DNA of 64,000 nt, from IMG/VR virus record IMGVR_UViG_3300046170_000433, positions 1 through 64,000 of that record, one strand, 5' to 3'. The translations under genes and the position numbers were made by a program. The notes under the pieces were generated by a model. It ran no database searches, was not told where the DNA came from, and was given only the letters and a program-made list of their open reading frames with translations. Shown here piece after piece: positions 8,981-11,933 of this stretch (position 1 is its first letter; every line of letters starts with the position of its first letter). Source of the stretch: a virus.

Positions 8981-9358
8981 ATGGAACATGAATTCGAGAT
9001 GGAAGAGATGACCATATTTGGTATCGATGTAGTCGTATCAGGTAAGGTCGAGTATAACATCGAGGATACTGCCGTGGGTTATGTCCCCTATGGGGACACC
9101 CATGTGTGGCATCCAGGTGGTGGAATGCAAGCAATAGACATAAAGCTCATTGAGCTGACTGAGCTTGTTGTTACGGGTAATTATGTGGATGGGAAGTGCA
9201 TCGTTGATGCAGGTGAAGTGAATCTCATCACATTACTTAACCAAGGTAAGGATAAAGTGTGGGAATCTATAGCACAAAAAGTCGAGCTTGATGATGCAAT
9301 TGAGTCTGAGACTGAGAGTGCTAAGGAAGAAGCCGCATTAGCGAGGGCTGGATTATGA
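8981..9358 (+). CDS. Hypothetical beta-rich early protein
   Basis: A 125-residue acidic protein. The first 80 residues are rich in Val, Ile, Gly and Tyr and look like beta structure (with VPYGDTHVWHPGGG in the middle); the last 30 are Glu/Ala-rich. It overlaps the next gene by four bases. Confidence 0.7.
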   Translation: MEHEFEMEEMTIFGIDVVVSGKVEYNIEDTAVGYVPYGDTHVWHPGGGMQAIDIKLIELTELVVTGNYVDGKCIVDAGEVNLITLLNQGKDKVWESIAQKVELDDAIESETESAKEEAALARAGL

Positions 9359-9741
9359 AGAATGATCCTAGATACTTGCTAGACTATGACAGACGTGTGG
9401 AGGTGTATCGTAACCTTCATAAGGGCTGTTGGTCTATCCGACAAGATGGGTTGGTAAAAGCTCATACTGATATGGCATTCTTATTCAATCCTAGGTTTGT
9501 CGTTCGAGAGAATGGTAGGCTTAGGGTTAATGAGAAGAGGAGCAAGAATGTTCACGCATGGCTAACGGGTATCTTACATGAGAATCCGAGCCGTGTGCAT
9601 GAGATTGGCAACTCCCATTGGCGTATGGTCACCTACGATCCGTACAAATATAAATCGTTTGTCACAAAGTCAGACAAGCAACCAGTAGATAACGCCAAAC
9701 AAGCGTGGATGATGACTCCCTATGTTTGGATTAAACAATAA
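9355..9741 (+). CDS. Conserved phage hypothetical protein
   Basis: A 128-residue basic protein of a type common in phages and prophages: an N-terminal RRVEVYRNLHKGCWSIRQ, then VKAHTD, FVVRENGRLRV and a KNVHAWLTG segment in that order. I know the pattern from unnamed phage proteins but know of no assigned function. AGGG precedes the start, which overlaps the upstream stop. Confidence 0.7.
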   Translation: MKNDPRYLLDYDRRVEVYRNLHKGCWSIRQDGLVKAHTDMAFLFNPRFVVRENGRLRVNEKRSKNVHAWLTGILHENPSRVHEIGNSHWRMVTYDPYKYKSFVTKSDKQPVDNAKQAWMMTPYVWIKQ

Positions 9742-9747
9742 TAAGAT

Positions 9748-9770
9748 TGTAACCTAGATAATTATATTAC
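9748..9770 (+). promoter_or_regulatory. Dyad control site, copy 7
   Basis: TGTAACCTAGATAATTATAT followed by TAC, two bases before the methyltransferase ATG at 9773. The outer arms GTAA/TTAC are kept. There is no Shine-Dalgarno. Confidence 0.65.
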
Positions 9771-9772
9771 AA

Positions 9773-11395
9773 ATGAATGATGAAAAAAACTATGAAGAAG
9801 AACAAATACAAGGCATACTTACCGAGAACGTCGTTACTCACCTCTCTATGTGTTCGGGATACGAAGGAATGGGCAGAGGGCTTAGAGGAATATTCCCTAA
9901 CTTGCGAGAAATCGCATACGTGGAACGGGAAGGATACGCTTGCGCGAACTTGGTTGCAAAGATTGAAGAGGGTGAATTGGCTGAGGCACCTGTCTTTACG
10001 GATGTTAAAGAGTTCCCATACGGAAAGTTCCGTGGATGCGTGGACATCTTATCTGCGGGCTTCCCTTGCCAACCCTTCAGCTCGTCAGGCATTCGGAAAG
10101 GAACTGAAGACCCGAGGCATCTGTTCCCCTTCATCGCAAACGGAATTAATCTTTGCCGACCAAACTGGGTCGCCCTCGAAAATGTCGAAGGAATCATCAG
10201 TTGTAAGTTCGGTGGCGAGCAGAACACAAGCGTTCTCAAATATGTCTTGGCAAGAATGGAAGAAATTGGTTACGAAGGTGCGTTCACTGTGGTCAGTGCG
10301 AGTGAAGAAGGCGCGCCTCACCAACGTAAAAGAGTCTTCATGCTCTTCCGCAACGCACACCCAGATGAATCTGAACGACCATTGGGGGACGCCGAAGGAG
10401 CAGGACTCCCGAGCCTGTCTAGTGGATCGGGGGAAGAGCAACCTTGGCGAGCAGGTACATGGCCTGCACGTCCAGGGCAAGCTCAGCACGGATGGGAAGC
10501 CCCAAGGGTTGTCATGGCCGACACCAAGGACAGGGAAGACGGACGGGACACCCGAGTCGGAAAAGAACAGACAGAGTCCGAGTCTGTCATCAGTAGCTCT
10601 GGGGGACGAGAAGACTTGGCCGACACCAACGACAGGGGAGGAGAAAGCAACTCGCCCGATGGGCAACCAAAAGCAGAAGATGCTCAGCCATGTAGCGATA
10701 ACGGAGACGGCTATTCAACAATCGAAAGATGCGTCCGGCAAAGCATGGGCAACCCCATCGACAATGGACACGCTTCCTCCGAAGAATGCCGAGGCACTAG
10801 CAAGGAACAAGAAGAAGGGAGGGTGCAAGAATCTGAGGGAGGATGTAGTGAAGACAGAACTAGTGAATCCTCAGATAATGTTCCCAACTCCGACAGTTGC
10901 AGGATTAGTGGAGGGCGGAGTAGCCAAGAATGTGGAGATGACGGAGACGGGCTTCACAGCGACACGGGAGAACGGGACGAAGTACGGAGCGAAGCTGAGG
11001 GATGCCGTGGAGAAGATGGAGAGTTGGGCGACACCACAAGCGAGCGATCATGTGGAAGGAGCGAGAACCTCCTTGGATTCCAACCAGAAATGTTTGGGGA
11101 GGGACTTGAAACAACAATGGGCGACTCCTCAAGCTTACGATCACAACAAGAACCCCGAGTCGGAAGTGAACAGCAAGCAAGCTACACTAGCGAGGAATCT
11201 GGGAAGGCTGAATACTCACGGGAAACTGAACCCGAATTGGGTAGAACAGCTAATGGGCCTTCATCAGGGTACTACGCTACTCCCGAGGAAATGGCTCTGC
11301 GAGTCCCCCGACTTAGACTCTTAGGGAATGGCATTGTGCCAGCCCAAGCCGAGCGAGCATACAGAATCCTGTTTGCTCGTTTCATTAACATGTAA
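9773..11395 (+). CDS. Cytosine-C5 DNA methyltransferase
   Basis: A 540-residue S-adenosylmethionine-dependent enzyme that would methylate cytosine at C5, here probably to protect phage DNA from restriction. Visible motifs: I (SMCSGYEGMGRG, about 25-36), IV with the catalytic Cys99 (GFPCQPFS), VI (ENVEG, 136-140), VIII (QRKRVF, 184-189) and X (RLLGNGIVPAQA, near 515-526). The target-recognition region between motifs VIII and X is about 320 residues of Ser/Gly/Glu/Arg-rich sequence with seven units of the form (A/G)(D/N)(T/S)... such as MADTKDRED and LADTNDRGG. The same DNA is open in the +1 frame over more than 1.5 kb (next entry). It follows a control site and its stop lies in the next one. 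Confidence 0.9.
   Translation: MNDEKNYEEEQIQGILTENVVTHLSMCSGYEGMGRGLRGIFPNLREIAYVEREGYACANLVAKIEEGELAEAPVFTDVKEFPYGKFRGCVDILSAGFPCQPFSSSGIRKGTEDPRHLFPFIANGINLCRPNWVALENVEGIISCKFGGEQNTSVLKYVLARMEEIGYEGAFTVVSASEEGAPHQRKRVFMLFRNAHPDESERPLGDAEGAGLPSLSSGSGEEQPWRAGTWPARPGQAQHGWEAPRVVMADTKDREDGRDTRVGKEQTESESVISSSGGREDLADTNDRGGESNSPDGQPKAEDAQPCSDNGDGYSTIERCVRQSMGNPIDNGHASSEECRGTSKEQEEGRVQESEGGCSEDRTSESSDNVPNSDSCRISGGRSSQECGDDGDGLHSDTGERDEVRSEAEGCRGEDGELGDTTSERSCGRSENLLGFQPEMFGEGLETTMGDSSSLRSQQEPRVGSEQQASYTSEESGKAEYSRETEPELGRTANGPSSGYYATPEEMALRVPRLRLLGNGIVPAQAERAYRILFARFINM
9777..11324 (+). CDS. WxTP-repeat protein overlapping the methyltransferase gene
   Basis: A second open frame of 515 codons on the same strand. 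From about residue 195 it holds seven WxTP units (HWGTP, SWPTP, TWPTP, AWATP, MFPTP, SWATP, QWATP) and near its end LNPNWVEQLMGL. Proteins with WPTP repeats and an LNPxWVExLMG end are common beside phage cytosine methyltransferases, so this frame looks like protein, not chance. Each WxTP unit coincides with one (A/G)DT unit of the methyltransferase frame. The ATG at 9777 lacks a ribosome site; an internal start or initiation coupled to the upstream frame is possible. Function unknown. Confidence 0.5.
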   Translation: MMKKTMKKNKYKAYLPRTSLLTSLCVRDTKEWAEGLEEYSLTCEKSHTWNGKDTLARTWLQRLKRVNWLRHLSLRMLKSSHTESSVDAWTSYLRASLANPSARQAFGKELKTRGICSPSSQTELIFADQTGSPSKMSKESSVVSSVASRTQAFSNMSWQEWKKLVTKVRSLWSVRVKKARLTNVKESSCSSATHTQMNLNDHWGTPKEQDSRACLVDRGKSNLGEQVHGLHVQGKLSTDGKPQGLSWPTPRTGKTDGTPESEKNRQSPSLSSVALGDEKTWPTPTTGEEKATRPMGNQKQKMLSHVAITETAIQQSKDASGKAWATPSTMDTLPPKNAEALARNKKKGGCKNLREDVVKTELVNPQIMFPTPTVAGLVEGGVAKNVEMTETGFTATRENGTKYGAKLRDAVEKMESWATPQASDHVEGARTSLDSNQKCLGRDLKQQWATPQAYDHNKNPESEVNSKQATLARNLGRLNTHGKLNPNWVEQLMGLHQGTTLLPRKWLCESPDLDS

Positions 11396-11413
11396 CCCAA
11401 ATAACTAGATAAC
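11391..11413 (+). promoter_or_regulatory. Dyad control site, copy 8
   Basis: TGTAACCCAAATAACTAGAT followed by AAC. It contains the methyltransferase stop codon and lies 10 bases before the ATG at 11424. Confidence 0.7.
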
Positions 11414-11423
11414 TAATACTACC

Positions 11424-11933
11424 ATGAGTGATATATACAAAGAACTAATCGCCCTTCAACGGGCAAACAATAACGTCAGAACCAAGGTTAACGAGTGGCT
11501 TCAACAGAATGTGCATGAGGATGCAGAGTCCCTTCAGTCCATTGTTATGGATGAACTTGGTGAGCTTCTTCCGATGCCCGAGGGTGGTTGGCTTGAGGGC
11601 TATGAAGACAGAGAAGCACAGATTGAGCAAGTCAAGGAGAAGCTATACAAGGATTTGCTCGCCTTCCTCAAGGACGAGCCAGTCAAGCGTGAGGAAGTTG
11701 TGGAGGTAGAAGACCCAACTCAACCAATCGTGGAAGAGCCTAAGCCTGAGCCTAAGCCTAAACCTAAGCCAAAGCCTAAGCCCAAGCCTGCTGACAACGA
11801 GGTTGCTACTGCAATCGTCACTCTACTCAACAGCAGTAAGGGTGCTGGTATCACAGAGGAGAGAGTCCGTGAGATAGTCCGTGAGGAAATATCTAAGATG
11901 GTCGATCAACTCTATATCGGTGTGCTTTCATGA
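11424..11933 (+). CDS. Proline-lysine repeat protein
   Basis: A 169-residue protein with three parts: an acidic helical N-terminal domain (1-90), a linker of PEPKPKPK-type repeats (about 108-123) like those of TonB, and a C-terminal helix-rich part with ITEERVREIVREEI. The linker suggests an extended spacer between two domains. No signal peptide, so it is not a TonB homologue. Function unknown. Confidence 0.7.
   Translation: MSDIYKELIALQRANNNVRTKVNEWLQQNVHEDAESLQSIVMDELGELLPMPEGGWLEGYEDREAQIEQVKEKLYKDLLAFLKDEPVKREEVVEVEDPTQPIVEEPKPEPKPKPKPKPKPKPADNEVATAIVTLLNSSKGAGITEERVREIVREEISKMVDQLYIGVLS

Follow-up and report, generated by a model that had tools for sequence, protein, structure and literature searches.

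The window analysed here comprises 64,000 nucleotides, namely positions 1 to 64,000 of the 75,615-base virus record IMGVR_UViG_3300046170_000433 in IMG/VR. It harbors, on the plus strand, an open reading frame of 540 codons from ATG (9773-11395, termed frame 0) and, in the +1 frame, a second one of 515 codons from ATG (9777-11324), while the +2 frame at the locus contains 39 stops. The openness of both frames at these lengths, pointed out in an earlier note on this DNA, was borne out: synonymous shuffling of frame 0 with its protein and codon usage fixed gave a mean of 8.1 and a minimum of 2 stops in the +1 frame over 5000 shuffles, against none observed. The frame 0 product matched PF00145 (2.3e-28) over residues 23-191 only, corresponding to motifs I-VIII, and phrog_363 (1.8e-37) over residues 20-531, together with a weak match to phrog_1008 at the motif X end (residues 510-539, 0.0041). 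The +1 product also matched phrog_1008, and no Pfam or NCBIfam family was matched by it. Motifs I, IV (PCQ), VI (ENV), VIII and X of the C5 methyltransferases are all present in frame 0, which lacks motif IX, and the recognition region and motif IX are not found on the catalytic chain.

The +1 product carries seven (W/F)xTP units followed by LNPNWVEQLMGL at 11226. Seven WxTP units had been counted in the earlier note, and the number stands, while one of them is FPTP and the consensus has been widened accordingly; the (A/G)DT-type units noted in frame 0 do coincide with them in position, yet their readings (in order GDA, ADT, ADT, GNP, PNS, GDT and GDS) conform only loosely to that formula. Both frames are open, with the same +1 features, in all of the nearest loci, i.e., L005, L003/L004, L058, L001 (Phage C75C1) and L007. 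The upstream gene at 9355-9741 matched PF25735 (Mycobacterium phage L5 gp82, 3.3e-28) and phrog_586, with a sub-threshold RAMA match. The features of the locus, in which alpha and beta denote the predicted products of frame 0 and the +1 frame, are as follows.

9773..11395, plus strand: predicted alpha (catalytic) gene, frame 0, with motifs I-VIII and X and no IX (PF00145, phrog_363, alignment)
9777..11324, plus strand: predicted beta (recognition) gene, +1 frame, ATG 4 nt past the alpha ATG, with an N-terminal region, seven modules and motif IX (open in all relatives; phrog_1008)
9854..9868, plus strand: motif I (SGYEG), frame 0 (invariant alignment columns)
10002..10004, plus strand: Met76 codon of beta, possible alternative start (site of internal beta starts with a Shine-Dalgarno sequence in other clades; that sequence is absent here)
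10064..10081, plus strand: motif IV with the catalytic Cys (PCQPFS), frame 0 (invariant alignment columns)
10178..10192, plus strand: motif VI (ENVEG), frame 0 (alignment)
10322..10339, plus strand: motif VIII (QRKRVF), frame 0 (alignment)
10340..11225, plus strand: putative alpha passenger linker across the module array, frame 0, open, amino acids not conserved (substitution ratios and openness test)
10383..10514, plus strand: beta module 1 (WGTP...), +1 frame, unit WGTP at 10383
10515..10616, plus strand: beta module 2 (WPTPRTGKTDGTP...), +1 frame, unit WPTP at 10515
10617..10745, plus strand: beta module 3 (WPTPTTGEEK...), +1 frame, unit WPTP at 10617; missing in L003 and L058
10746..10880, plus strand: beta module 4 (WATPSTMDTLPPKN...), +1 frame, unit WATP at 10746; 83% to L263 module 2
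10881..11024, plus strand: beta module 5 (FPTPTVAGLVEGG...), +1 frame, unit FPTP at 10881; 86% to Phage C75C1 (L001) module 1
11025..11117, plus strand: beta module 6 (WATPQASDHVEGA...), +1 frame, unit WATP at 11025; 90% to L189 module 2
11118..11225, plus strand: beta module 7 (WATPQAYDHNKNP...), +1 frame, unit WATP at 11118
11226..11276, plus strand: motif IX (LNPNWVEQLMGLHQGTT), +1 frame, where frame 0 reads ...EPELGRTANGP... on the same DNA (hhalign against in-frame motif IX)
11318..11341, plus strand: motif X (LLGNGIVP), frame 0 (invariant alignment columns)

IMG/VR was sampled for related loci without regard to the other frame, and most of the loci obtained are metagenomic contigs. Sampling by LNPxWVExLMG-encoding DNA only mostly recovered a C5 methyltransferase one frame behind, while sampling by motif X DNA (LGNGVVP) only recovered an IX-like sequence in the +1 frame at 50 loci, in frame at 39 and in the +2 frame at none, with motif IX not found in 22 loci of this sample. 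The class of the present locus, designated as class B and comprising 112 unique loci, is defined by a frame 0 motif X together with a +1 motif IX. Stops in their +1 frame were absent both from the 9432 codons between motifs IV and VIII, where 237 were expected, and from the 15,339 codons between motifs VIII and IX, where 213 were expected, while those in the +2 frame were near expectation. In each of the 112 loci, the +1 open reading frame begins before motif IV is reached, and among 191 loci none was found with beta closed between motifs IV and IX. The converse count was made over the array with the synonymous codons of the +1 frame shuffled: where motif X lies in frame 0, the 8707 codons of that frame held 2 stops although 280 were expected, whereas 17 stops were found against 18.5 expected in three loci with motif X in +1. 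The wider set of nine loci with motif X in +1 contained 60 frame 0 stops in 1488 codons, L226 alone having none. Frame 0 is thus kept open over the array where motif X must be reached and decays where it is not needed. In L023 and L053, a single in-frame stop interrupts alpha at a point between motifs VIII and X, while their beta is undamaged.

Substitutions were scored as synonymous or nonsynonymous in each frame, both in the window group (the window locus, L005, L003 and L058) and in a wider set of 31 pairs with no locus in common, for which closer pairs were used, since distant ones are saturated (beta 0.80 and alpha 1.10 from motif VIII to motif IX). Between motifs VIII and IX, the window group differs at frame 0 positions 1, 2 and 3 at 0.378, 0.159 and 0.145, respectively, so that the fastest position is the wobble position of the +1 frame. 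In the same region, the ratio dNN/dNS for beta was 0.39 (0.35-0.44) and dNN/dSN for alpha was 1.46 (1.24-1.74) in the window group, whose pairs share branches; the 31 pairs gave 0.49 (0.39-0.60) and 1.18 (1.08-1.32). An alpha ratio above 1 need not reflect positive selection. Between motifs IV and VIII, both frames are constrained in the window group (beta 0.37 (0.20-0.65), alpha 0.14), and the 31 pairs gave 0.77 (0.65-0.91) for beta, a weak constraint, and 0.26 for alpha. Before motif IV, only frame 0 is constrained in the window group, the beta constraint being absent; the stretch past the end of beta, which served as an internal control, is constrained in alpha only (0.31, against 1.11 in the beta frame, 31 pairs). 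Judged from these substitutions, the amino-acid constraint between motifs VIII and IX falls on the +1 frame only, and frame 0 would be an open passenger leading to motif X. Since the +1 frame appears to be selected in the array and frame 0 does not, the '(A/G)DT' units of frame 0 are by-products of the WxTP codons.

The inference of dual coding in the earlier note is strongly supported by the openness of both frames in the relatives and by the reduced synonymous change: stops in the +1 frame of related methyltransferases were looked for and none was found, and third positions of frame 0 in the variable region differ at about 0.15 versus 0.28-0.38 at first positions. Two parts of the proposal have to be revised. 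The +1 product does not accompany the variable recognition part as a second protein but appears to be that part itself (modules and motif IX), which is absent from frame 0. Nor is the joint evolution of the two frames one between equal partners, given the one-sided constraint between motifs VIII and IX. WPTP proteins, given there as frequent neighbors of phage methyltransferases, turn out at the loci studied to be mostly the overlapping frame itself.

The identity of the +1 product was approached through its C-terminus and its modules. Residues 480-500 of beta align with the in-frame motif IX of C5 methyltransferases (hhalign 95%, E 4e-8), and the in-frame modules of the single-chain enzyme L129 match +1 modules of other loci, for instance module 1 of L121 with 59% over 29 residues. 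Furthermore, phrog_1008, annotated as 'DNA methyltransferase', was matched by 64 of 65 beta proteins. Because LNPNWVEQLMGL aligns with the motif IX missing from frame 0, the +1 product is most likely the methyltransferase's own recognition subunit (beta) rather than an unrelated gene product. An AlphaFold2 model of L129 displayed the M.HhaI fold in its catalytic part and pLDDT below 50 in the module region; the model of beta was weak (pLDDT 54, pTM 0.28), with values above about 75 only for helices near residues 29-80 and 143-184 and for motif IX. Neither a Foldseek comparison of the beta model with the PDB nor a profile search of PDB sequences with beta returned a match.

The seven modules of this locus are 31-48 residues long each, and the 458 modules found across loci have a median length of 42 residues. 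Only 351 of 1090 similar module pairs between loci share the same ordinal position, and the beta of Phage C75C1 is about 40% identical overall to that of the window despite the 86% match of module 5 to its module 1. All 435 blastn module matches are in the same phase, as both frames demand. In size, number and exchange, the modules resemble the exchangeable units of about 40 residues that characterize multispecific C5 methyltransferases, which suggests that they would act as exchangeable target-recognition units.

Where beta starts internally, it usually does so 15-22 codons ahead of motif IV, and a Shine-Dalgarno sequence of at least 5 nt precedes 24 of 35 such starts, compared with 3.9% of control ATGs. 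The remaining clades and the present locus have the beta start only a few bases away from that of alpha. No Shine-Dalgarno sequence was found at the alpha or beta start of this locus (9741-9780) or ahead of the next gene (11396-11424), and the phage may use starts that are independent of it.

Taken together, the product of the locus is very probably a single DNA cytosine-5 methyltransferase that is split over two polypeptides with overlapping coding regions. Alpha, read in frame 0, would be the large catalytic domain with motifs I-VIII and X, in which the DNA of the array is read as an open, unconstrained linker, while beta, read in +1, would comprise an N-terminal part over the catalytic motifs, the seven (W/F)xTP recognition modules and motif IX. 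Beta would initiate separately, from the ATG 4 nt after that of alpha or from Met76, and the two chains would assemble into a working methylating enzyme, each module presumably recognizing one target; methylation by this enzyme would tag the phage DNA, probably as protection from host restriction. Comparison among the loci supports the view that in this family both frames are translated, that the +1 frame is selected in the array and that motif IX resides in +1.

Three other explanations were weighed against this one. It is hardly credible that the +1 frame is untranslated and owes its pattern to the conserved residues of the methyltransferase, to composition and to a DNA motif that recurs: conserved frame 0 codons do partly force some of the +1 residues close to motifs VIII and IX, but from motif IV on the 112 class B loci contain 0 stops in 24,771 +1 codons against 450 expected with the frame 0 protein and codon use fixed, and the +1 wobble is the fastest position. 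Moreover, module segments chosen by blastn, which is neutral between frames whereas choice by +1 similarity introduces a bias, are 81% identical in +1 versus 52% in frame 0, the +1 identity being higher in 415 of 435. An alternative that is somewhat less far-fetched, though still very improbable, takes frame 0 for a complete enzyme and the +1 product for an independent overlapping phage protein such as an anti-restriction factor. The unbroken run of frame 0 through motif X and the want of a Pfam or NCBIfam match for the +1 product would agree with it; against it, frame 0 has no motif IX and no amino-acid constraint between motifs VIII and IX, while the +1 product aligns with motif IX at its C-terminus, shares its modules with in-frame methyltransferases and falls into phrog_1008 in nearly every beta protein compared.

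Programmed frameshifting, by which motifs I-VIII of frame 0 would be fused to the modules and motif IX of +1 in one chain rather than two, is unlikely as well, if the least so of the three. It would yield the canonical motif order and was named as a possibility by the authors on Corndog (PMC4351075), and in loci that have their motif X in +1 as well (L035, L049, L057, L190, L202 and others) a single shift would give a complete enzyme. In the class of this locus, however, motif X is in frame 0, so that a second shift back would be required, and it is precisely in loci with X in the alpha frame that alpha stays open over the array. A shift after motif VIII would leave no need for the stop-free +1 frame through motifs IV-VIII in all 112 loci. 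Finally, internal beta starts bear Shine-Dalgarno sites, which favors two products over frameshifting; translation of beta from its own start is therefore the favored reading of the sequence evidence.

Returning to the overlapping alpha-beta pair, its history was traced on a FastTree phylogeny of the catalytic domain, which is approximate on account of long branches. The loci whose motif IX is in frame fall into a single group (support 99) that one change separates from class B, and motif X moved into +1 at nine separate places, at least seven of them on well-supported branches. The loci with motif X in the beta frame are L048, L035, L049, L057, L190, L202, L210, L226 and L323, of which L226 still has an open alpha. 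The notion that loci with in-frame motif IX are ordinary single-chain enzymes was rejected, as most of them keep the modules in +1, and the group was split into A1 and A2. In the A2 type (L163, L169, L174, L181, L184, L192, L211 and others), motifs IX and X are in the catalytic frame and the modules in +1, and the +1 open reading frame ends at a stop that spans the first and second codons of motif IX (e.g., CTGAGC, TTAAAC); this stop lies within one codon of IX in 15 of 20 loci, so the chain boundary differs by lineage. In a further clade (L194, L303 and L312), motif IX belongs to +1 and the alpha frame holds motif X, but alpha is closed over the array by many stops; motif X is thus detached from alpha, and the end of beta lies directly beside it.

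Related pairs were encountered in named phages of Paenibacillus, Mycobacterium, Lactobacillus, Acinetobacter and others, Lactobacillus phage Lc-Nu being one carrier, as well as in bins of Verrucomicrobiota and other bacteria. A search of IMG/VR with the beta peptide pattern alone gave no match, and tblastn of beta against named phages retrieved only two records, because beta is divergent. Both open reading frames are annotated in a few of these named phages, e.g., Paenibacillus phage Bloom. In Paenibacillus phage HB10c2 (KP202972.1), a beta-like stretch lies under the feature 'putative BsuMI modification methylase subunit YdiP'. We consider it rather probable that much of one large group of phage C5 methyltransferases consists of catalytic/specificity pairs overprinted on one gene, in which the +1 frame is an array of interchangeable target modules, the catalytic frame over it is a passenger whose openness serves only to reach motif X, and repeated moves of motifs IX and X between frames have left chain boundaries that vary by lineage (modules only, modules with IX, or modules with IX and X).

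Gene finders usually annotate one frame, and the recognition half of many phage methyltransferases consequently goes unlisted or hypothetical, while the passenger frame gets read as a recognition domain. If the proposed pairing is true, many such genes would look inactive when expressed from one codon-optimized annotated frame. The pair would also provide a clear case of a long same-strand overlap that has been kept in phages whose hosts differ widely, and would supply target-recognition units as a modular set.

Among known systems are the multispecific phage C5 methyltransferases of the SPR/phi3T type (Trautner and others 1996, a reference listed in PMC12707154). Enzymes of this kind carry target-recognition units of about 40 residues that stand in a row and can be exchanged; these enzymes are single chains in a single frame, whereas the row of units here would lie on a separate chain in an overlapping frame. 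The phrog_1008 (beta) and phrog_363 (alpha) listings do not reveal that the same DNA is used in two frames. The gene for the small chain of M.EcoHK31I is nested within that of the large chain in another frame, and the overlap of small-chain and large-chain genes in different frames is shared by the present locus. According to PMC3404938, M.EcoHK31I (YGGCCR; Lee, Kam & Shaw 1995) is a C5 methyltransferase made of two polypeptides, the large one holding motifs I-VIII and X and the small one motif IX, and by that description the same division is seen here. The same source assigns the predicted target-recognition region to the large chain, whereas at this locus it is the small-chain frame to which the modules belong by both selection and homology. 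Unlike M.EcoHK31I, the present pair has seven modules and a beta open reading frame that wholly overlaps alpha, and it belongs to a phage, with no adjacent restriction enzyme noticed. M.AquI (PMC3404938) likewise has its catalytic and recognition parts as two chains, but carries motif X with IX on the small chain, whereas X is in the alpha frame here; an M.AquI-like division occurs in a few relatives (class C: L035, L049, L057, L190, L202 and others).

Genes 6 and 7 of Corndog have been described as two overlapping methylase segments, with the strongest ribosome-binding site of the second inside the first and coding potential in the overlap, and no peptides of the split methylase genes were found; the choice between two products, a frameshift, a hop or an intron was left open by the authors (PMC4351075). 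The locus shares the overlapping methylase segments with Corndog, and the tests made here, on other loci than Corndog, favor two products, which answers that question in a testable form. In the open-access papers searched, no description of the general overlapping-frame pattern was found. While the two-polypeptide M.EcoHK31I is a known precedent, what is new here is the prevalence of the arrangement, which of the frames is selected, the modular array and the shifts of motifs IX and X between frames.
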